A DNA stretch of 64,000 nt, taken from contig CP131056.1 of assembly GCA_030657355.1 (NCBI GenBank), forward strand, positions 2,376,501 through 2,440,500, given 5' to 3'. Of this stretch, positions 29,923-58,780 are shown one piece after another. The notes under the pieces were generated by a model. It saw only the letters and a program-made list of their open reading frames with translations, made no database searches and was not told the origin of the DNA. This DNA is from Radicibacter daui (lineage in GTDB: Bacteria; Pseudomonadota; Alphaproteobacteria; Radicibacterales; Radicibacteraceae). The position numbers and the translations under genes were made by a program. Position 1 is the stretch's first letter, and each line of letters opens with the position of its first letter.

Positions 29923-30540
29923 ATGAACTTCCAGCAGGCGAGCCAGTTGCAGCAAAAACGGCCTGAAGCCGCCTCGGCTGTTCCGTCCGCCAGTGTCCGG
30001 TTTGCCCTGAAAGAAGCGACCGCCGATGCCCATCGGCGGCTTGATGCCCTTTCTGCGCGCTTTAATCTCTCGGACGACGCCGGTTACCGCGATTTCCTCA
30101 TGGCCTCGGCAGCGGCGCTGCTGCCACTTGAGGCCGCGCTTGAGCGCGGCGGTGTCGCGCAGCTTCTGGAAGACTGGCCAAGCCGGACCCGGGCAAGTGC
30201 GATCTGTGCCGATCTCCAGGGGCTGGAGGGGGATATTCCCGACGCCAGGTCCGTTACACTGCCGGCCTCACCCGCCGCCCTTTTTGGCGTCCTTTATGTT
30301 CTGGAAGGTTCGCGCCTTGGTGCGCGTTTTGTGCTGAAGCAGCTGGAGCCGGCCGGTGAGCGGGTGCGCCAGAACGTGCGGTACCTGACCCATGGCCGCG
30401 AACAGGACCTGTGGCGTTCCTTTGCCGCCCGGCTGGAGAGTGAAGCGACAATCGCCGGTGACCTTGCGACGACTATCGCAGCCGCTCATACGGCGTTTGG
30501 CGTTTTCCTCGACCGGTTCGCCGCAGGGCCTGCATCATGA
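29923..30540 (+). CDS. bphO: Heme oxygenase (biliverdin-producing)
   Basis: 205 residues. Bacterial heme oxygenase of the BphO type: RFALKEATADAHRRLD holds the proximal heme His (His37), and PAALFGVLYVLEGSRLGARFVLKQL the distal helix with its glycines. It opens heme to biliverdin, the chromophore of the phytochrome encoded next. The stop overlaps the bphP start as ATGA, so the enzyme and photoreceptor are co-translated. The ribosome site before ATG 29923 is weak. Confidence 0.92.
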   Translation: MNFQQASQLQQKRPEAASAVPSASVRFALKEATADAHRRLDALSARFNLSDDAGYRDFLMASAAALLPLEAALERGGVAQLLEDWPSRTRASAICADLQGLEGDIPDARSVTLPASPAALFGVLYVLEGSRLGARFVLKQLEPAGERVRQNVRYLTHGREQDLWRSFAARLESEATIAGDLATTIAAAHTAFGVFLDRFAAGPAS

Positions 30541-32750
30541 GCCGCTCCTCCGCCCCCGCGGCGGGCGCCGGCGTTGACCTGACGACGTGCGACCGCGAGC
30601 CGATCCACATTCCCGGGTCGGTCCAGTCGCATGGCTGCCTTCTGGCGTGCGATCCCGCCACCTTTGTCATTCGCCGTCATTCGGCCAACGCCGCAAACCT
30701 GCTGCGGGCAGAAATGCCCTCACTGCCGGGCCGCCCGCTCGGCGAGGTGATTGGCAAGGAAGCGGCGCATGCCGCCCTCAATGCGCTTGCCAAATCGGTA
30801 ACGCCCGCCCGCCCCGGCCTTTATTTCGGCATGCCGTGCGGGAATGACGCCGGCACTTTCGACATTGCCGCCCACTCCTATGGCGGCAATGCAATTTTCG
30901 AGTTCATGCCCAGCCCGGATCCGGGCGAACGCGGCGATATGGAGCTGGTGCGCGCCGTCATGCACCGCCTGAGCGCGGCCACGACGGTGGAGGGCCTGCT
31001 GCGCGGAACGCCCCGGCTGCTTCAGGAAGCGCTGGGGTATGACCGTGTGATGATCTACCAGTTCAGCGAGGACGGCGCCGGCAAGGTGGTCGCCGAAAGC
31101 CGCCGGCCGGACCTTGAATCCTTTCTGGGGCAGTGGTTTCCGGCCTCGGACATTCCGCAGCAGGCCCGCGCGCTTTACGTCAAGAACATCATCCGCGTGA
31201 TCGGTGACGCCGGGGATACCGGGGCGACCATCGAACCCCTCCTCGATGCATCGGGTCAGCCGCTCGATCTTTCCTTCGCCCAGCTGCGCAGCGTCTCCCC
31301 GATTCATCTGGAATATCTGCGCAATATGGGCGTTCGGGCCTCAATGTCGGTGTCGATTATCGTGGATGGCGCGCTGTGGGGGCTGATTGCCTGCCACCAC
31401 TATTCCGCCCGCCCGCTCTCCCTTACCACCCGCCTCAATGCCGAGCTTTTCGGCCAGTTCTTCTCCATGCAGGTGCAGACCCTGCATCAGCAACGCGCCA
31501 TCGACGCCTCGGCCCGGGCCCGTCGCAAGCTGGATGCGCTGTTTCAGGATCTCGCGCAGGAAGAAAGCCCGGCCCGCCTCTTCGGCCAGAATATCGGCGA
31601 GCTGGCGGAGATCATCCGGTGCGACGGGGTTGGCATCCATTTTGATGGCGCGATCACGGTATCCGGCCTCACGCCCCCCACCCGCATTCTCCACGCGATC
31701 GCCCGGCTCGCCCATGAGCAGGCGCCGGGGCAGATATGGGCCACCCATTCTCTTCCCTCGCACATGGCCCTGCCCGAGGGGATGCTGGAAAGCGTTGCCG
31801 GGGTGCTGGCCGTGCCGCTCAGCCAGCTGTCGCAGGACTATGTGCTGTTCTTCCGCCAGGAGGTAGTGCGTACCATCGACTGGGCGGGCGATCCGAACAA
31901 GCAGTACGAAACCGGCCCCCTTGGCGACAGGCTGACGCCGCGCAAGAGTTTTGCCCTCTGGCAGGAGACGGTGCGCGGCCAATCCGTCCCGTGGGAAGCA
32001 TTCGCCCGCGAGGCGGCGGAAACGCTGCGGGTTGGCATGATGGAAGTCATCATGCGCCAGGGCGAATTGCTGGCCGAAGAGCGCCGCAAGGCGGAAATTC
32101 GCCAGAAACGTCTGAATGACGAGCTCAACCACCGCGTCAAGAACATCCTGGCCCTGATCCGCTCGCTCGTTCGTCAGGGCGCCAGCGAAAAGCGGCCGAT
32201 GGCCGATTATGTCGCCGCACTCGAAGGCCGCATCCTCGCACTTTCAAATGCGCATGATCAGGTTTTACGAGGCGATGGCGGTGGATCGCTTGCCACGCTG
32301 GTTGGCGCCGAAGCCGAACCCTATCTGTCGCGGGTCCGCGTTGGCGGGCCGGAAGTCGTGCTCGATGCACGCGCCTATTCCGTTCTGGCGCTGGTGATCC
32401 ACGAGCTTCTGACCAACGCCGCCAAATATGGCGCCCTGTCCCGGTCCGCCGGACATCTGGATGTCGGCTGGACGCTCACCGAAGACTGCGACTGCGTAAT
32501 CACCTGGCTGGAAAGCGGCGGCCCCCTCGTCTCGCCACCGACACGGCGGGGATTCGGCGCCACGCTGGTGGATCGCGCCGTTCCCTACGATCTCGGGGGC
32601 ACCAGCGAGATCGACTATCACCCGGACGGCGTTCGCGCCCGGCTGGTTATTCCGTCCCGCTATGTGCGGGCAACACCGGCAACAGCCGGCACGGGCATCG
32701 AAACGGAGACGAAAGTGGAGCCAGAGGGTTTTCCCGGCGTGATCTGCTGA
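30537..32750 (+). CDS. bphP: Bacteriophytochrome with HWE histidine kinase
   Basis: 737 residues. PAS-GAF-PHY photosensory core and a C-terminal HWE kinase. Cys18 (DLTTCDREPIHIPG) is the biliverdin attachment site; the GAF motif FPASDIPQQARALY is at 201-214, the PHY tongue motif LTPRKSF at 466-472 with WAGDP at 449-453. In the kinase the phospho-acceptor is His532 (DELNHRVKNILAL), the N box HELLTNAAKYGALS is at 622-635 and the WxE feature WLESGG at 657-662. The stop overlaps the response regulator start (TGATG). Red/far-red light sensing is expected. Confidence 0.94.
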   Translation: MSRSSAPAAGAGVDLTTCDREPIHIPGSVQSHGCLLACDPATFVIRRHSANAANLLRAEMPSLPGRPLGEVIGKEAAHAALNALAKSVTPARPGLYFGMPCGNDAGTFDIAAHSYGGNAIFEFMPSPDPGERGDMELVRAVMHRLSAATTVEGLLRGTPRLLQEALGYDRVMIYQFSEDGAGKVVAESRRPDLESFLGQWFPASDIPQQARALYVKNIIRVIGDAGDTGATIEPLLDASGQPLDLSFAQLRSVSPIHLEYLRNMGVRASMSVSIIVDGALWGLIACHHYSARPLSLTTRLNAELFGQFFSMQVQTLHQQRAIDASARARRKLDALFQDLAQEESPARLFGQNIGELAEIIRCDGVGIHFDGAITVSGLTPPTRILHAIARLAHEQAPGQIWATHSLPSHMALPEGMLESVAGVLAVPLSQLSQDYVLFFRQEVVRTIDWAGDPNKQYETGPLGDRLTPRKSFALWQETVRGQSVPWEAFAREAAETLRVGMMEVIMRQGELLAEERRKAEIRQKRLNDELNHRVKNILALIRSLVRQGASEKRPMADYVAALEGRILALSNAHDQVLRGDGGGSLATLVGAEAEPYLSRVRVGGPEVVLDARAYSVLALVIHELLTNAAKYGALSRSAGHLDVGWTLTEDCDCVITWLESGGPLVSPPTRRGFGATLVDRAVPYDLGGTSEIDYHPDGVRARLVIPSRYVRATPATAGTGIETETKVEPEGFPGVIC

Positions 32751-33118
32751 TGGGACTGCGTGTTCTGCTGGTTGAAGACCAGCTGGTTATCGCGCTGGAG
32801 GCGGAAGCCTGCCTCGCAGACCTCGGCGCTGCTGCGGTTGATACCGCCGCAACCGAGCGTGAGGCGATGGAGGCCATTCGCCGGGCGGCGCCGGACCTTG
32901 CCGTTCTGGACCTCAATCTTGGTGGTGCCTCAACGTCTATCGGCATCGCCCGGGAGCTGGCAAAGCGCGGCATCCGGTTTATTTTTGCGACCGGCTACGG
33001 CGACGGATCGATGCTTCCTGACGACATGAAGGACGTCGCCATTGTCCGCAAACCCTATAACGCCTGGATGCTCGGTCAGGTCATTGAGCTGGCGCTGAAG
33101 GCCAACCCGGCCGGCTGA
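32750..33118 (+). CDS. Single-domain response regulator (FATGUY-type receiver)
   Basis: 122 residues, a receiver domain only. Acidic pair at VEDQ (Glu9, Asp10), phosphorylation site Asp54 (LAVLDLNLGG), Thr81 in FATGYG and Lys101 in VRKPYN. The FATG-Y stretch places it with receivers that, in alphaproteobacteria, relay phosphate from HWE kinases and often influence the PhyR-NepR-EcfG general stress response. No output domain. Translationally coupled to bphP, so the phytochrome kinase is its likely donor. Confidence 0.9.
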   Translation: MGLRVLLVEDQLVIALEAEACLADLGAAAVDTAATEREAMEAIRRAAPDLAVLDLNLGGASTSIGIARELAKRGIRFIFATGYGDGSMLPDDMKDVAIVRKPYNAWMLGQVIELALKANPAG

Positions 33119-35943: not shown

Positions 35944-35968
35944 GGAACTTATGCAGTCCGCGCCGGTT
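35944..35968 (+). promoter_or_regulatory. Near-consensus EcfG-type promoter before the BON-like gene
   Basis: GGAAC at 35944-35948 and GGTT at 35965-35968 are 16 bases apart, close to the alphaproteobacterial general-stress consensus GGAAC-N16/17-CGTT. The -10 differs in one base. The site is also a spaced inverted repeat, GGAAC and GTTCC. Confidence 0.45.
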
Positions 35969-36030: not shown

Positions 36031-36630
36031 ATGGTCAATACCCCGAAAGAGCCTGAAAAATCCCGTCGCCGACCGGCAATTGCCGGCAATGACGCAGCGG
36101 ACACCACCCGGCATAGTCTTGAGCTCGAGCATAATCGCGAAGGGATCGCCCGCCTCGAAAATGGCCGCCCGCAAAAGGCCGAGCCCACTTACGAGGAAAG
36201 TGCCCGGTTCGGCGAAAGCTGGGCCACCCGCTGGACGGGTGATGAAAGAACATTTGACCCCCGGGACCAGCAAGCGCGTTACGCGCTGAGCCTTCCGCCA
36301 GAAGGGGCTGCCGATGTGCGGGTGGCCTATGCACGTCCGGTTGCTGCCGGTGAAGCCGATGAAAGGCGCCCCTCCGATGCCGGCCTTGACGGCTATACGG
36401 TGCTCGAAGTGCGCATGCTGCGCCAGATCGAGGCCTTGTTCGAGCGCGAGTTGCTGCTTCAGGGGGCGCGGATCGTCGTCTTGCTGCGAGCAGGTGATGT
36501 CCGGCTTGCCGGACGGGTGCCGCATGAGGACGCCCGCCACCGCGCCGAGGCGCTCGCGCGGACCGTTGCCGGCGTAAGACGTGTACGCAACCAGTTGCGC
36601 ATCGCCATCCGGACGGTACCGGCACCGTAG
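36031..36630 (+). CDS. BON-like domain protein
   Basis: 199 residues. N-terminal 120 residues are polar and probably disordered (EPEKSRRRPAIAGNDAADTT). The C-terminal part, about 130-195, resembles a BON domain: MLRQIEALFERELLLQGARIVVLLRAGDVRLAGRVPHEDAR then ARTVAGVRRVRNQLRI. BON domains are found in osmotic-stress envelope proteins such as OsmY, but no signal peptide is visible here. ATG 36031 has GGAG at 36021. A near-consensus EcfG promoter precedes it. Function unproven. Confidence 0.7.
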   Translation: MVNTPKEPEKSRRRPAIAGNDAADTTRHSLELEHNREGIARLENGRPQKAEPTYEESARFGESWATRWTGDERTFDPRDQQARYALSLPPEGAADVRVAYARPVAAGEADERRPSDAGLDGYTVLEVRMLRQIEALFERELLLQGARIVVLLRAGDVRLAGRVPHEDARHRAEALARTVAGVRRVRNQLRIAIRTVPAP

Positions 36631-36922
36631 AACCCTAAATTTGTTCCGTTAAATCCGTTCAAAGCATCAATATAAAAAGTCGAATAAAGCCTTACTCCAT
36701 TGAGAAACAAACGGCTGAGCTCGCTCGTTACTATTACAGGCCGCACAATGGAGCCAGGTTGCCGAAATAAAGACCGTCTCCTGAATGGGGGATGTGTTTG
36801 TGTTTCTTCATGCCCAAGGCCCGATTGCCAATGGGCATTGCAACTTTGCCCCTGGCGGTAACTCTACCGGCTCCATGACAATGATCATGCGCCGGTGCGT
36901 GAACACACCAGGAGGAACAATC
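36631..36922. other. Gene-free, AT-richer gap
   Basis: 292 bases between the BON-like and PRC-barrel genes. The first 130 bases are clearly richer in A and T than the surroundings. No tRNA, small ORF or clear promoter could be supported; GGAGGA at 36911-36916 is the ribosome site of the next gene. Confidence 0.5.
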
Positions 36923-37828
36923 ATGCGCAGCAAACTGCTCGCCGCCCTGTCGATCGCAGCACTCGCCGCAGGCAGCGCTGCCGGCGCCTATGCCGCCGAT
37001 ATGACCCAGACCACCCCGGATCAGACGACTGCGCCGGGCCAGACGACCACCGATCCGGCCAACAGCGCCGCCACGCAGGCCAACCCTGCGATGCCGGGCT
37101 CGTCGGCTACCGGCGATACCGCCGCAACCGGCAGTGACTGGCGCAAGGGCGATTCCGTGCGCCTTGCCAATGGCGATATCAGCGGCAAGAAGCTGATTGG
37201 TCTTGATATCGCCGCCTCTGGCGGCACCAAGGAGCAGGCCAATGGCGACGTCGAAGACGTCGTCGTGAGCGAAAACGGCGATGTCTCCTATGTGGTGATC
37301 AAGCGTCCGGCCGCTGATGGCAAAGGTGACGAGGAAGTCGCCGTGAAGTTCGACGACCTGACGCTGACCCCGGGCAAGGATGGCGCCATCACAGCGTCGA
37401 TGAGCGATGCACAGCGCGCCGAAGTGCTGGGGTATCTGCGCAAGGACAACTGGCTGTGGAAGGACGACGTGACTGTCCAGCAGGGCGTCGCCCTCAGCGA
37501 CATGATCGGCTCCGAAGTTGACGGTCCGGATGGCAACCAGGTCGCCAGCATCGACAATGTCGTGATCAATGAGGACGGCACGGTCAAGTACGTGGTGATT
37601 GACCATGGCGGTTTCCTCAATATCGGCAACAAGAAGACGGCCCTGAACTTCAACGAGCTGACCCTCGGCCAGGGCGACGCGAACTACACCGTGTCCCTGA
37701 CCAGCGACCAGCTGGATGCCGCGCCGGAATATGACGAGGATAACCCCTCGGCAACGGCTCCGGCAGCAGATGGCGGAAGCACGCCGCAGCCGGTGACGCC
37801 GGCCACGCCGACGCCCTCGACGCCGTAA
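36923..37828 (+). CDS. Exported protein with two PRC-barrel domains
   Basis: 301 residues. Signal peptide about 1-25 (ALSIAALAAGSAAGAYA, cut before ADMTQ). A Thr/Ala/Pro-rich stretch to 72 is followed by two PRC-barrel-like halves: LIGLDIAASGG-DVEDVVVSENGDVSYVVI (about 93-125) and MIGSEVDGPDGNQVASIDNVVINEDGTVKYVVID (about 195-228). A Pro/Thr tail ends it. Expected in the periplasm. ATG 36923 has GGAGGA seven bases upstream; the frame opens earlier at 36785 but without a signal sequence. It faces the ECF sigma gene across a terminator. Confidence 0.8.
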   Translation: MRSKLLAALSIAALAAGSAAGAYAADMTQTTPDQTTAPGQTTTDPANSAATQANPAMPGSSATGDTAATGSDWRKGDSVRLANGDISGKKLIGLDIAASGGTKEQANGDVEDVVVSENGDVSYVVIKRPAADGKGDEEVAVKFDDLTLTPGKDGAITASMSDAQRAEVLGYLRKDNWLWKDDVTVQQGVALSDMIGSEVDGPDGNQVASIDNVVINEDGTVKYVVIDHGGFLNIGNKKTALNFNELTLGQGDANYTVSLTSDQLDAAPEYDEDNPSATAPAADGGSTPQPVTPATPTPSTP

Positions 37829-37933: not shown

Positions 37934-38425
37934 TCACCCCTCGCCAAGAAGGCCGGCAAGCTGCTGGCGCGCCCGCGTAAGGCGACTCTTGATGGTTCCG
38001 ACAGGGCAGCCCACAGCAGCCGCCGCGTCTTCGTGGCTCAGCCCGAGTGCGCCGACGAGGATGATGACCTCCTGATGTTCCGGTGACATCTTGTCGAGCG
38101 CCTGCGCCGTATCCCGCAGCAACAGTCCGGCCTCCTGGCCGCCGGTGATCGCCACCTCGAGTGCAATGGCCGCCGCGTCGCGCAGGCTCTCCCGCCCGCG
38201 CCGTTTCAGCGTGTTGCGAAAGGTATTGCGCATGATGGTGACGAGCCATGCCTTGAGGCTGGTACCAATCTCAAAGCGGCTGACATTGGCAAGAGCTTTC
38301 AGCAGGGTTTCCTGGACGAGATCGTCTGCGTCCCACGGGTTGCGCGTCAGACTATAGGCATAGGCCCGCAACGCCGGCAGCAGAACCCTCGTCGCTCGCG
38401 CGAGGATGATTTCATGCGATGCCAT
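37934..38425 (-). CDS. ECF sigma factor resembling EcfG
   Basis: 163 residues. Region 2 is YSLTRNPWDADDLVQETLLKAL (about 24-45), region 4 LGLSHEDAAAAVGCPVGTIKSRLTRARQQL. The signature regions match the alphaproteobacterial EcfG/general-stress group. ATG 38425 is chosen: it has GGGAG upstream, while a GTG 12 codons earlier would leave almost no leader. A perfect GGAAC-N17-CGTT promoter lies 58 bases upstream, suggesting it transcribes its own gene. No nepR or phyR gene is next to it, so it may be a paralogue of the main EcfG. Confidence 0.85.
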   Translation of the reverse strand: MASHEIILARATRVLLPALRAYAYSLTRNPWDADDLVQETLLKALANVSRFEIGTSLKAWLVTIMRNTFRNTLKRRGRESLRDAAAIALEVAITGGQEAGLLLRDTAQALDKMSPEHQEVIILVGALGLSHEDAAAAVGCPVGTIKSRLTRARQQLAGLLGEG

Positions 38426-38482: not shown

Positions 38483-38508
38483 AACGCTTCCGGTTAAGGG
38501 CGTGTTCC
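38483..38508 (-). promoter_or_regulatory. EcfG-type promoter of the ECF sigma gene
   Basis: On the minus strand GGAAC (38508-38504), exactly 17 bases, then CGTT (38486-38483). This is an exact match to the published alphaproteobacterial general-stress consensus. Transcription would begin near 38475, about 50 bases before the chosen ATG. Confidence 0.75.
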
Positions 38509-38684: not shown

Positions 38685-40898
38685 TCAGGCGGTGCGCCGT
38701 GCGCGGCTGAACAATCTTTGCAGACCAAGTGTTACCAACGTCCATAGCAGCACGAAACCGCCAAACAGCAGCCCCTGCTCCAGGGTCGGGTGCGTGATGA
38801 GGCGTACCAGTTGATTGCCGACCGCCGAAATGACGATCAGCCCGGGCACCAGCCCCATCGCCGTGCCGATCAGATAATCACGCAATCCGAGCCGGATGGT
38901 TCCACACACCAGATTGACGATGGAGAACGGCGCGATCGGCAAGAGTCGCAAGGTGACAACCGCAACAACGCTCTTGTTGTCGAGATTTTGCCGGACACGG
39001 TTAATGCGGGGGCCGATCAGCCGCCGCAGCATGGGGCCGCCCAGCCATCGCCCGAAGCAATAGGTGGTGAAGGCACTCGCCAGCGCGGCAGATCCAGCAA
39101 GCACAGCACCCTGCCAGCCTCCAAAGACGGTAATGGTGCCGAGGATGAGCAGGTTGACCGGGAACAGCACCAGATCGCCGAGGATGAAAATGACCAGGAC
39201 CAGCGCCGGCGCCCAGGGCCGGTCCGCCATCTGCCCCAGAAAGTGGGCGAGCTTTTGCGGCTCAACGAATGGCGAATATTGCCAGGCCAGACCCATTACG
39301 ACCAGCACCCCCAGGGCAAGGGCCGCTTTCATCCAGCCACGCCAGCGTTTACGGGGCGCCTTGTCTCCCGAGGCGGAAAGCCCATCTGAGGGTTGCGGAT
39401 CGGCAAGGGCGCCAATCCCCTCCAGCGTCTCGTCGGCAAGTTGCGGGTCGACAGGTTGCAAGACGCGCCTGGCCCCGGCGGCGGCAGACGAAGCATCTAT
39501 CAGGGCCAGCAGGGAGGCATCCGGTTGCGACAGCCGCCGCTCGACATCTTCTGCCGCAAGGCCGAGATGCTCCCCAAGCAGGCGTGCCCGCACGGCGGCA
39601 ACGCCGGCGCGCTGGGTTTCATTGGCAGCAATAACCGTCAGATCGCACTCGCTGTCTATGGTCATCGACCGGTTGGCGAGATTGGCGGAGCCGACGCGCA
39701 GCGCAAGGTCATCCACGATCATCAGCTTGGAATGGACGAAGATGTCGGTCTGGCTGCCATCGGCCCCGGAAACTACCGGGCAAACCAGCCTGACCCGTTC
39801 CATCACCCCGGCAGCGTCCAGCACCTGCATGAACCGCGCGCGGCCTCCTTGCATGGCCTGGCTCTCGACCCAACCCGGATATCGGCGCGGTGCAACCATC
39901 ACCAGTTCCAGACCGGGGCATTTGCGCATGCGGGCGGCAAGTGCTTCCGCTACGCCGGCGGCAGTCAAAAACTGGTTTTCTATATAGATATGACGCTCTG
40001 CTGCGCCGATCAGGGCCAGATGCAGGGCTTCCACCTCCCGGATCGCCGGAGCGGTATCGGCCTCCGGCACCGTGCGGGAAATACCGATATCGACATCTAG
40101 AAAATCCGGTGTGACCGCGGCCGGCCAGCCGTCGGCAGCCGCCCCGGCGCCCGCCGGCGGCTTCAGTTGCTCACAGGCGGCCCACCGCCAGCGCTGACGC
40201 ACAAGATCGCCCAGTGCCGCTGCGGCTGGCCCGTCGACCATCATTTGCAGATCATGGAACGGCGGATAACTGGCACCGCGCGGATCTGTCCGGCGCGGAT
40301 CATCCGGCTTGTGGTGCGGCGTATCCCACCGGCGGCTGGTGATGTCGAGCCCGCCGCAGAAGGCGATACGGTTGTCGATCACGACCAGCTTCTGGTGCTG
40401 CGAGCCCCCCAGCGGGGCGCTGTCGTCCAGGCAGATTTCTATCTGCTTCGGGGTGCGCCAGTTGAAGGAATAGAACGGCGCCAGCTCGCGCTCGAGCGCG
40501 TAAATGAGCGAATAGTCCCAGAGCAGCAGGCGCACGCGCAGCGCGGGATTGCGGCGCACCAGCGCCGAGAGGAAAGCCGCCAGCGTCACCGGCAGATCAT
40601 CATCCGGCCGGCCGCTTTCCCCGACCAGCGGTGTACGGCTGTCGAGGTCCCATCCAACGATGTCTATGCTGGAGCGGGCAGCCAGCATGGCGGAACGCAG
40701 GGCGGCGTAGTAGCCGGCAGCATCCACGAGCACGGAAGCCCGATGCGCCCGTGCCGTGCGCCAGACAGTGCTACCCGGCCGCAGCAGGGCATGGACCGGT
40801 GCGCGCGGAGCATTCGCGGCGAAGGCAGCATGATATCCCGGTTGCGCTTCCGGCAGCTCTTCACCCGCTTCTTGCGCCCTCACCGCCTCTTTCCGCAT
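38685..40898 (-). CDS. Phospholipase-D-like protein fused to a VTT membrane domain
   Basis: 737 residues. Two PLD catalytic motifs: HQKLVVIDNRIAFCGG (His168, Lys170, Asp175) and HSKLMIVDDLALRVGS (His389, Lys391, Asp396). After a linker, the C-terminal 200 residues are a VTT/SNARE-associated (DedA-like) domain with several membrane helices, including DLVLFPVNLLILGTITVFGG and VTLRLLPIAPFSIVNLVCG. It could act on membrane phospholipids or make cardiolipin-like products; VTT relatives scramble or flip lipids. ATG 40898 has GGGAG eight bases before it; a GTG lies three codons up. An exact EcfG promoter precedes it. Confidence 0.85.
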   Translation of the reverse strand: MRKEAVRAQEAGEELPEAQPGYHAAFAANAPRAPVHALLRPGSTVWRTARAHRASVLVDAAGYYAALRSAMLAARSSIDIVGWDLDSRTPLVGESGRPDDDLPVTLAAFLSALVRRNPALRVRLLLWDYSLIYALERELAPFYSFNWRTPKQIEICLDDSAPLGGSQHQKLVVIDNRIAFCGGLDITSRRWDTPHHKPDDPRRTDPRGASYPPFHDLQMMVDGPAAAALGDLVRQRWRWAACEQLKPPAGAGAAADGWPAAVTPDFLDVDIGISRTVPEADTAPAIREVEALHLALIGAAERHIYIENQFLTAAGVAEALAARMRKCPGLELVMVAPRRYPGWVESQAMQGGRARFMQVLDAAGVMERVRLVCPVVSGADGSQTDIFVHSKLMIVDDLALRVGSANLANRSMTIDSECDLTVIAANETQRAGVAAVRARLLGEHLGLAAEDVERRLSQPDASLLALIDASSAAAGARRVLQPVDPQLADETLEGIGALADPQPSDGLSASGDKAPRKRWRGWMKAALALGVLVVMGLAWQYSPFVEPQKLAHFLGQMADRPWAPALVLVIFILGDLVLFPVNLLILGTITVFGGWQGAVLAGSAALASAFTTYCFGRWLGGPMLRRLIGPRINRVRQNLDNKSVVAVVTLRLLPIAPFSIVNLVCGTIRLGLRDYLIGTAMGLVPGLIVISAVGNQLVRLITHPTLEQGLLFGGFVLLWTLVTLGLQRLFSRARRTA

Positions 40899-40960
40899 CT
40901 GCCGCACTCCCGCCCGTGATGGCCAAGCGGATGCCAGAACCCGCGCGCCTCCAGCGAGTT

Positions 40961-40986
40961 AACGGTTGCACTGCGGTAGCGGTTCC
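40961..40986 (-). promoter_or_regulatory. EcfG-type promoter of the PLD/VTT gene
   Basis: On the minus strand GGAAC (40986-40982), 17 bases, CGTT (40964-40961), an exact consensus. It lies 63 bases before the start codon at 40898 and points toward it. Confidence 0.7.
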
Positions 40987-56985: not shown

Positions 56986-57011
56986 GGAACCCGCCCCCGG
57001 CATGCCGCGTT
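56986..57011 (+). promoter_or_regulatory. EcfG-type promoter of opgD
   Basis: GGAAC (56986-56990), exactly 17 bases, CGTT (57008-57011): an exact general-stress consensus, pointing to opgD. Transcription would start near 57019, giving a leader of about 160 bases. Confidence 0.7.
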
Positions 57012-57181: not shown

Positions 57182-58780
57182 ATGTCCCCCACTCTTGACC
57201 GCCGCGCGCTTCTCAAGGCGGTTGCTGCCACCTCGGCCATTGGCCTCGTCATGCGGGGCGGCCAGCCGGCCCTGGCGGCTGAAAAAGGCCTGAAGTTTGG
57301 CGATGCCTTCGACTTCTCGTTCGACACGCTGAAGCAGATGGCCGCCCGGATGTCGCGCGACGTCTATGTTGGCCCTTCGCATCCCGATCCGGAAATCCTG
57401 CAGCAGATCGATTACGACGCCTGGGGCAAGATCAGCTACGACACCGATCTTGCGGTGTTCGCGGACGGGCCCGGCAAGTTTCCCGTCACCTTCTTCCATC
57501 TCGGCCGCTTCTTCCAGAAGGCGGTGCAGATGCATGTGGTGGAAGGCGGCATGGCGCGCGAGATCGTCTACTCGTCCGATTATTTCAAGATGCCGGCCGA
57601 CAGCGTGGCCCACAAACTGCCGGAAGGTGCCGGTTTTGCCGGCCTGCGTGTGCAGGAGCCGCGCGATGGCGAACTCGACTGGCGCAAGAATGACTGGGTC
57701 GCGTTCCTCGGCGCTTCTTACCTGCGCTCTATCGGCGAACTGCACCAGTACGGGCTTTCCGCCCGCGGTCTGGCGCTCGACACTGCGGTCTATGGCAAGG
57801 CCGAGGAATTCCCCGACTTCACCCAGATCTTCATCCAGACACCGGAAAACGGCAGCAGCGACAGCCTGACGCTGTTTGCCCTGCTGGACAGCCCGTCGAT
57901 CACCGGTGCCTATCGCTTCGAGATGACGCGCGCGGCGGGTGTAGTGATGGACATCGATGTGACACTCTACCCGCGTGCCGCCATCAGCCGTTTCGGTATC
58001 GCGCCGCTGACCTCAATGTACTGGTTTTCCGAGACTGCCAAACCGACGGCCATCGACTGGCGTCCGGAGATCCATGATTCCGACGGGCTGGCGCTTTACA
58101 CCGGCGTGGGCGAGCATATCTGGCGCCCCCTCAACAACCCGCCCTACATCACCGCCTCCGCCTTCGGCGACGAAAACCCGCGCGGCTTCGGGCTGCTGCA
58201 GCGTGACCGCAATTTCGACCACTATCAGGACGGCGTCTATTATGACCGCCGCCCGAGCGCCTGGGTCGAGCCCAAGGGCAGCTGGGGCAAGGGCGCGGTT
58301 CAGCTGATCGAGCTGTCGACCGATGACGAAATTCACGACAACATCGTCGCCATGTGGGTGCCGGAAGTAACGCCGGCTCCGGGCAGCGAGTTCAGCTACG
58401 GCTACCGGCTCTACTGGTCTGCGGACGAGCCGGATCCGACGCCGCTGGCGCGCTGCGTGGCCACCCGCCTCAGCAATGGTGGCCAGCCCGGCCAGCCCCG
58501 CCCCAAGGGCGTGCGCAAGTTCATGGTCGAATTCCTCGGCGGTCCGCTGACGGATGTGCCGTTCGGCGTGAAGCCGAAGATCGAGGCGACCACCTCACGG
58601 GGCACTTTCACCGACTACCAGCTGGTGGAAGCCGTGCCGGACGGCGTTGCCGGGCACTGGCGGGCCCAGTTTGACCTTGCGGGCGTAGAGGGCACCGATC
58701 CGGTAGAGATCCGCCTCTTCCTGTCTCTGGACGGCAAACCGGCAACGGAAACCTGGCTCTTCCAGTACCATCCGTTCTGA
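57182..58780 (+). CDS. opgD: OpgD/OpgG-type periplasmic glucan synthesis protein
   Basis: 532 residues. N-terminal twin-arginine signal (DRRALLKAVAATSAIGLVMRG, cut after ALAAE) shows Tat export; the tatABC genes are in this window. The body has the MdoG/OpgG fold: FDFSFDTLKQMAARMSRDVYVGP, MHVVEGGMAREIVYSSDYFKMP, APLTSMYWFSE, RPEIHDSDGLALYTGVGEHIWRPLNNP and QRDRNFDHYQDGVYYDRRPSAWVEP. The Tat signal points to OpgD rather than OpgG. Osmoregulated periplasmic glucans protect against low osmolarity. GGAG lies seven bases before ATG 57182. No opgH is adjacent. Confidence 0.9.
   Translation: MSPTLDRRALLKAVAATSAIGLVMRGGQPALAAEKGLKFGDAFDFSFDTLKQMAARMSRDVYVGPSHPDPEILQQIDYDAWGKISYDTDLAVFADGPGKFPVTFFHLGRFFQKAVQMHVVEGGMAREIVYSSDYFKMPADSVAHKLPEGAGFAGLRVQEPRDGELDWRKNDWVAFLGASYLRSIGELHQYGLSARGLALDTAVYGKAEEFPDFTQIFIQTPENGSSDSLTLFALLDSPSITGAYRFEMTRAAGVVMDIDVTLYPRAAISRFGIAPLTSMYWFSETAKPTAIDWRPEIHDSDGLALYTGVGEHIWRPLNNPPYITASAFGDENPRGFGLLQRDRNFDHYQDGVYYDRRPSAWVEPKGSWGKGAVQLIELSTDDEIHDNIVAMWVPEVTPAPGSEFSYGYRLYWSADEPDPTPLARCVATRLSNGGQPGQPRPKGVRKFMVEFLGGPLTDVPFGVKPKIEATTSRGTFTDYQLVEAVPDGVAGHWRAQFDLAGVEGTDPVEIRLFLSLDGKPATETWLFQYHPF

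Follow-up and report, generated by a model that had tools for sequence, protein, structure and literature searches.

The sigma factor gene that we designate ecfG2 most probably encodes an orphan EcfG2/RpoE5-type sigma factor that is switched on by the canonical EcfG1, with EcfG2 and a third paralogue, EcfG3, amplifying the general stress response (GSR). The gene is a further case of a non-canonical EcfG, an arrangement of an already known kind. It lies in a stretch of 64,000 nucleotides of the Radicibacter daui genome (hereafter the window, C1:2376501-2440500), which totals 5.06 Mb on two contigs, C1 (4.26 Mb) and C2 (0.80 Mb). This genome makes for a clean case, with one PhyR, one NepR, and three EcfG, all with exact EcfG promoters.

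ecfG2 encodes an EcfG-like sigma factor behind an EcfG-type motif

A sequence scan of the window located GGAAC-ACGCCCTTAACCGGAAG-CGTT at positions 38483-38508 on the minus strand, and the ATG of ecfG2 (38425) lies 57 bp downstream of this GGAAC-N17-CGTT element. The original prediction that such a motif directly precedes an EcfG-like sigma gene is confirmed, with the position exact. We annotate the element as the predicted EcfG-type promoter of ecfG2, which has counterparts before nepR-ecfG1 and ecfG3, and the predicted 5' UTR is ~50 nt.

The ecfG2 gene (37934-38425, minus strand) encodes a 163-aa ECF15-like protein (P0002), which we classified as an orphan EcfG-type sigma factor using Pfam domains, a PDB match, and its position in our trees. 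The product has the ECF architecture of sigma2 and sigma4 domains only (Pfam Sigma70_r2, 68 bits; Sigma70_r4_2, 48.8 bits), and its top PDB sequence match is 5uxx (E 1.7e-38), which we take to be a Bartonella EcfG homologue. It also matches PhyR_sigma2 with 45.1 bits against a cut-off of 27, a profile that is not specific to EcfG given that three non-EcfG sigma factors of this genome exceed the same cut-off. The PhyR_sigma2 and 5uxx matches, together with a tree position beside nepR-linked EcfG, indicate kinship of the product to EcfG and to the sigma-like domain of PhyR.

The EcfG-type motif marks gene starts in this genome

Counts in the window alone are unremarkable, with three exact N16-18 matches against 1.21 expected and at least three in 16 of 100 shuffles. 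Across the genome, there are 44 exact GGAAC-N16/17-CGTT sites compared to 109 sites of the reversed pattern, so the exact motif is the rarer of the two. Exact sites were intergenic in 25 of 43 cases versus 5 of 30 for the reversed-pattern control (Fisher p 6e-4), and 18 of 43 had a gene start at most 250 bp downstream versus 1 of 30 control sites (Fisher p 1.3e-4). These placement counts covered 43 of the 44 CGTT sites (the ecfG3 site, in another locus, was left out), 52 of 54 GGTT sites, and, for the control, the first 30 of 109 sites by position, with genes called by a home-made codon model. For any one gene, the chance of an exact site in the 250 bp upstream on the same strand is ~0.0011. 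Judged by placement, GGAAC-N16/17-CGTT is a real promoter signal in this genome, and on these statistics we rejected a chance motif before ecfG2.

A broader form of this alternative, in which the motif before ecfG2 is either a chance match or a minor promoter and the main transcription starts at another, housekeeping promoter, strikes us as very improbable. Precedents for it exist, since the six ecfG genes of M. extorquens are described as having no EcfG promoters and no stress induction, and S. granuli ecfG2 as constitutive (PMC4814048, PMC7083833). It is also favored by the 18 of 43 exact sites that fall inside called genes. However, at ~0.0011 per gene, exact sites nevertheless precede all three ecfG transcription units (3/3).

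The genes behind exact sites include opgC, mdoG/opgG, and the genes for a YMGG Gly-zipper protein, Ysc84, G6PD, uracil-DNA glycosylase, and class I lysyl-tRNA synthetase; among the 13 such genes scanned, two had no family and one had only a match below cut-off. A GGTT-type -10 element was not significantly enriched relative to the control, with 15 of 52 sites intergenic (p 0.29) and 8 of 52 upstream of genes (p 0.14), and the genes behind GGTT-type sites include fliM, lgt, and a LacI regulator.

The spacer was N17 in 14 of 19 upstream exact sites versus 6 of 18 coding sites (p 0.02), the coding sites being mostly N16 (12/18); the lists behind this comparison were sorted by hand, with the ecfG3 site added and 7 intergenic sites that are not upstream of genes left out. 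The spacer is N16 at nepR-ecfG1 and phyR and N17 at ecfG2 and ecfG3. We rejected the spacer as a way to tell EcfG1 from EcfG2/EcfG3, given that 9 of the 10 other orphan-clade members with a site (see below) have N16. A nepR-linked ecfG of another genome (locus L128) has one more exact EcfG-type site in the stretch that separates it from nepR, 103 bp upstream of the sigma match.

A single canonical nepR-phyR-ecfG1 locus lies elsewhere in the genome

A NepR profile built here gave no match across the whole window at E values up to 10, and a PhyR_sigma2 search detected no PhyR in the window. The predicted absence of nepR and phyR beside ecfG2 is thus confirmed. With no nepR in the window, and hence none directly adjoining the sigma gene, ecfG2 is ruled out as a canonical EcfG.

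The genome-wide search for nepR, phyR, and ecfG that had been proposed as a check gave a divided answer: none lies near ecfG2, but a canonical set is present ~0.75 Mb away along with a third EcfG on C2. Pfam NepR detects a single nepR in the whole genome. PhyR_sigma2 has seven matches. One is PhyR, which carries a receiver domain, and the other six are sigma factors with sigma2 and sigma4, three of them EcfG and three not. nepR and phyR, as expected for a genome with ECF15/EcfG, are thus present in one copy each. PhyR and NepR are encoded at C1:1,662.7-1,664.2 kb in the classical layout (C1:1.66 Mb), with phyR on the minus strand beside a nepR-ecfG1-kinase unit whose kinase is of the HisKA_2 type. 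The nepR-ecfG1 unit is preceded by GGAAC-N16-CGTT and the divergent phyR by GCAAC-N16-CGTT. The ecfG3 gene (C2:352422-352862) starts 58 bp downstream of an exact N17 site, and its product is 54% identical to that of ecfG2. Over the 17 kb around ecfG3, the NepR profile gave only one, meaningless match (E 7.5). The suggestion that ecfG2 is a second EcfG paralogue is borne out.

The sigma genes at C1:378 kb, C2:424 kb, and C2:727 kb were rejected as EcfG because they fell outside the EcfG clades in the first tree. Beside the gene at C1:378 kb, the frame L006:617-1450(-), identical to L051:6460-7293(-), contains a NepR-like stretch by our own profile (E 5e-4) that Pfam NepR does not report, and comparably weak matches occur in L133 and L136 from other genomes. 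This frame possibly encodes an anti-sigma factor with a NepR-like segment.

ecfG2 and ecfG3 fall in an orphan clade of EcfG

In the second tree (61 rows), ecfG2 has ecfG3 as its sister (100/96), and both fall within an orphan clade of 27 rows (100/98) that contains no nepR-labelled row; the first tree recovered this clade with 23 rows (100/98 and 98/98). Its members include R. etli RHE_RS26680, an S. meliloti pSymB gene, and genes of Tistrella, Phyllobacterium, Rhodobacter, Ciceribacter, Mesorhizobium, and Rhizobium. ecfG2 thus groups with the presumed R. etli EcfG2 and with S. meliloti RpoE5 and has no linked nepR, as a non-canonical EcfG does. The ecfG1 of this genome lies outside the orphan clade, grouping with nepR-linked rows in the first tree (96/62) and branching in the 61-row tree from an open fork (83/92) that also gives rise to the canonical and orphan clades. 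The 40 nearest comparison genomes share only the class with this lineage.

The first tree included 10 of 29 nepR-linked named loci and, from L101-L124, only L117. The second tree omitted 15 rows of the first, namely the long branches L138, L146, L147, L148, and L149, the distant L133-L137, L144, L145, and L150, the C2:424 kb sigma gene of this genome, and the partial match L117, which had fallen inside the orphan clade. It gained 11 plasmid genes, among which R. etli RS26695 forms a very long branch. nepR labels came from our own profile or, for L252, L254, and L255, from record annotation, and weak matches in L100 (E 0.09 and 0.048 in two scans), L133 (0.0015), L136 (0.04), and L090 (0.28) were not labelled as NepR. 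Across the 27 orphan loci, the best matches to the NepR profile were those of L100 (E 0.048) and L090 (E 0.28), both discounted. An RsiA-like ORF of S. meliloti is barely seen by this profile (E 4.9), so degenerate NepR genes could be missed.

GGAAC-N16/17-NGTT was present within 260 bp upstream in 12 of the 27 clade members, compared to a shuffle mean of 0.245 (largest 3), and the exact CGTT form in 4 of 27, two of them in this genome. The other 15 members, R. etli RHE_RS26680 among them, had no GGAAC-N16/17-NGTT within 260 bp upstream. Many of the other clade members are close Rhizobium relatives and thus not independent cases.

Comparison with known systems points to a probable circuit downstream of EcfG1

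More than one EcfG is said to occur in about half of completed alphaproteobacterial genomes, with the role of the extra copies described as unsettled (PMC3892343). R. etli EcfG2 (PF00052), which we infer from plasmid and clade to be RHE_RS26680 on p42f, resembles ecfG2 of R. daui in being an orphan without adjoining nepR or phyR, in having a canonical set in its genome, and in belonging to the same 100/98 clade. The two differ in that ecfG2 of R. daui lies on the larger contig (4.26 Mb) behind an exact GGAAC-N17-CGTT and is accompanied by a third EcfG in its genome, whereas the R. etli gene has no GGAAC-N16/17-NGTT before it. The R. etli branch of this group is described as plasmid-borne (PMC3892343), and the R. 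daui gene adds a case from another lineage that lies on the larger contig.

S. meliloti RpoE5 (SMb21484) shares with EcfG2 its clade, its ECF15 type, and a GGAAC promoter, and transcription of rpoE5 is driven by RpoE2, the canonical sigma factor of the GSR (PMC6180224, PMC3616915); we identified the pSymB gene of the clade as rpoE5 because its upstream DNA is identical to the printed promoter (PMC6180224). The S. meliloti locus differs in that this promoter is printed as GGAAC-N16-CATT and that the paper notes the RsiA-like ORF, antisense to the downstream gene (PMC6180224). One EcfG also drives a second in C. crescentus (SigT/SigU) and Sphingopyxis granuli (EcfG2/EcfG1; PMC3892343, PMC7083833), although the Caulobacter and Sphingomonas paralogues are closer to each other than R. 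etli EcfG1 is to EcfG2 (PMC3892343).

Since the genome has one NepR and one PhyR, the simplest circuit has a kinase acting through PhyR, NepR, and EcfG1 to induce ecfG2 and ecfG3. PhyR would be phosphorylated in response to stress by an HWE/HisKA_2 kinase and would then draw NepR away from EcfG1, which would direct RNA polymerase to GGAAC-N17-CGTT before ecfG2 (and ecfG3). EcfG2 and EcfG3 would in turn read promoters of this class, including their own, so that part of the general stress regulon would be transcribed more strongly or for longer. The use of the promoter, the sigma factor that reads it, and the amplifying role are what we infer from sequence and precedent. An amplifier role is not general in the clade, given that R. 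etli ecfG2 is reported not to be directly stimulated by EcfG1 in E. coli (PMC3892343) and that a single putative target is described for RpoE5 (PMC6180224).

The motif had been taken to suggest that ecfG2 is autoregulated from its own promoter. This conclusion does not follow: a canonical locus and a third EcfG are present, so an EcfG promoter before ecfG2 does not imply self-regulation, and any of the three EcfG could read the site. The closest experimental parallel, rpoE5, is transcribed by RpoE2 (PMC6180224, PMC3616915), and R. etli ecfG2 is reported as both autoregulated and partly EcfG1-dependent (PMC3892343). EcfG2 itself is likely to be among the sigma factors that read it.

Alternatively, EcfG2 could form an arm apart from EcfG1, reading its own promoter free of NepR and in response to its own input, perhaps an HWE phytochrome and FATGY receiver encoded nearby; we consider this unlikely. 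It is in keeping with the description of R. etli ecfG2 as autoregulated and partly PhyR/EcfG1-independent, with a distinct regulon, and with the reported lack of interaction between NepR and the second EcfG in C. crescentus and Sphingomonas sp. Fr1 (PMC3892343). Differences between the groups of EcfG bear on both readings. Thirteen alignment columns separate the canonical from the orphan consensus, all at residues 16-105. Seven of them fall at the end of sigma2 and in the linker (residues 70-71 and 82-105), which lends the separate arm some weight and possibly reflects, as a guess, changed NepR contacts in orphan EcfG. None falls in sigma4, so -35 recognition is probably common to both groups, in favor of the circuit through EcfG1. 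Against that circuit, the ecfG2 product departs from canonical EcfG at 20 of the 63 columns conserved there, and of the 13 group-specific columns it carries the orphan letter at 3, the canonical one at 3, and some other residue at 7. Against a separate arm, the perfect CGTT consensus before ecfG2 should be readable by EcfG1 too, and the genome-wide searches turned up neither a second PhyR nor a second NepR to relay a kinase signal to EcfG2.

A phytochrome kinase is encoded near ecfG2

The one unusual feature of the ecfG2 locus is its phytochrome-kinase neighborhood, which supplies a testable set of kinase genes. Three plus-strand genes lie in a row (29923-33118) ~5 kb from ecfG2: a heme oxygenase gene (29923-30540; Pfam Heme_oxygenase), whose product may supply chromophore for the phytochrome; the gene for a bacteriophytochrome with an HWE kinase domain (30537-32750; Pfam PAS_2, GAF, PHY, HWE_HK), a candidate GSR input; and the gene for a single-domain receiver (32750-33118; Response_reg) with the sequence FIFATGYGD, a candidate SdrG-like relay. 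We presume that FATGY marks the FAT GUY receiver family, to which SdrG belongs.

Three of the five HWE/HisKA_2 kinases in the genome are encoded within ~6 kb of the three ecfG genes: one adjoins ecfG1, the phytochrome lies 5.2 kb from ecfG2, and ecfG3 has the third at a distance of 3.1 kb. The probability that both orphan ecfG genes have such a kinase nearby by chance is ~4e-5 to 9e-5, computed post hoc, and this proximity favors an EcfG2 with an input of its own. In other genomes, however, an HWE kinase was present in only 4 of 19 orphan-clade loci of ~10 kb versus 31 of 32 nepR-linked loci, in a survey that used a home-made profile from 3 kinases of this genome and in which many nepR-linked loci come from close Agrobacterium relatives. 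We therefore rejected the idea that orphan ecfG genes generally have an HWE kinase beside them; the nearest one in R. etli is ~9 kb off. A search allowing one mismatch found no EcfG-type site before the heme oxygenase gene on its own strand, and a GGAAG-N17-CGTT at 30303-30328 falls inside that gene, 208 bp before the phytochrome gene, which also counts against a separate input. HWE kinases are known to feed PhyR directly or via SdrG, the FAT GUY receiver that links HWE/HisKA_2 kinases to PhyR in Sphingomonas melonis (PMC5898713), so proximity does not tie the kinases to EcfG2.

The dedicated input proposed for this paralogue thus finds no counterpart in a genome without a second PhyR or NepR, the sole hint being the HWE phytochrome/FATGY pair ~5 kb off. 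A literature search limited to one library found no paper that brings phytochrome, EcfG, and PhyR together, and the one paper it gave for bacteriophytochromes, HWE kinases, and the general stress response concerns a blue-light kinase. As a hypothesis that we regard as unlikely, each EcfG might sit in its own stress module with a nearby HWE/HisKA_2 kinase, pairing a dCache/HAMP kinase with EcfG1, the red/far-red phytochrome kinase and FATGY receiver with EcfG2, and EcfG3 with a PAS kinase. In that case, the EcfG2 island would form an arm of the GSR linked to light, either converging on the single PhyR/NepR or hitting EcfG2 by a route not yet described.

An island of putative stress genes surrounds ecfG2

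Three exact [CG]GTT sites, before a BON gene, ecfG2, and a PLD/VTT gene, occur within 5.1 kb compared to ~0.1 expected (P ~1.4e-4, computed post hoc), which places ecfG2 in a small stress island. On the minus strand, a second exact EcfG-type site (N17, 40961-40986) was found by motif scan upstream of the gene for a PLD-like/VTT-domain membrane protein (38685-40907; Pfam PLDc, PLDc_2, VTT_dom), a probable regulon member whose start is 40907 in the longest ORF and 40733 by the codon model. On the plus strand, motif scanning placed GGAAC-N16-GGTT (35944-35968) 62 bp before the gene for a BON-domain protein (36031-36630; Pfam BON), also a probable regulon member. A PRC-barrel protein with a signal-like N-terminal stretch is encoded convergently with ecfG2 (36923-37828, plus strand; Pfam PRC) behind a weak, one-mismatch EcfG-like site found in the same way, GAAAC-N17-CGTT (36704-36729, plus strand), and is a possible regulon member.

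The third exact EcfG-type site of the window (56986-57011, plus strand) lies 170 bp before mdoG/opgG (57182-58780, plus strand; Pfam). Exact EcfG-type sites precede both this gene and opgC (L012), which suggests that periplasmic glucan synthesis may fall within the general stress regulon here.

ecfG3 has an island of its own (L049, C2:344000-361000), which encodes an HWE-PAS kinase, an SDR dehydrogenase, two DUF4142 proteins, a DUF4396 protein, and Host_attach/baeRF proteins, and a GGAAC-N16-GGTT lies at the start of the first DUF4142 gene.
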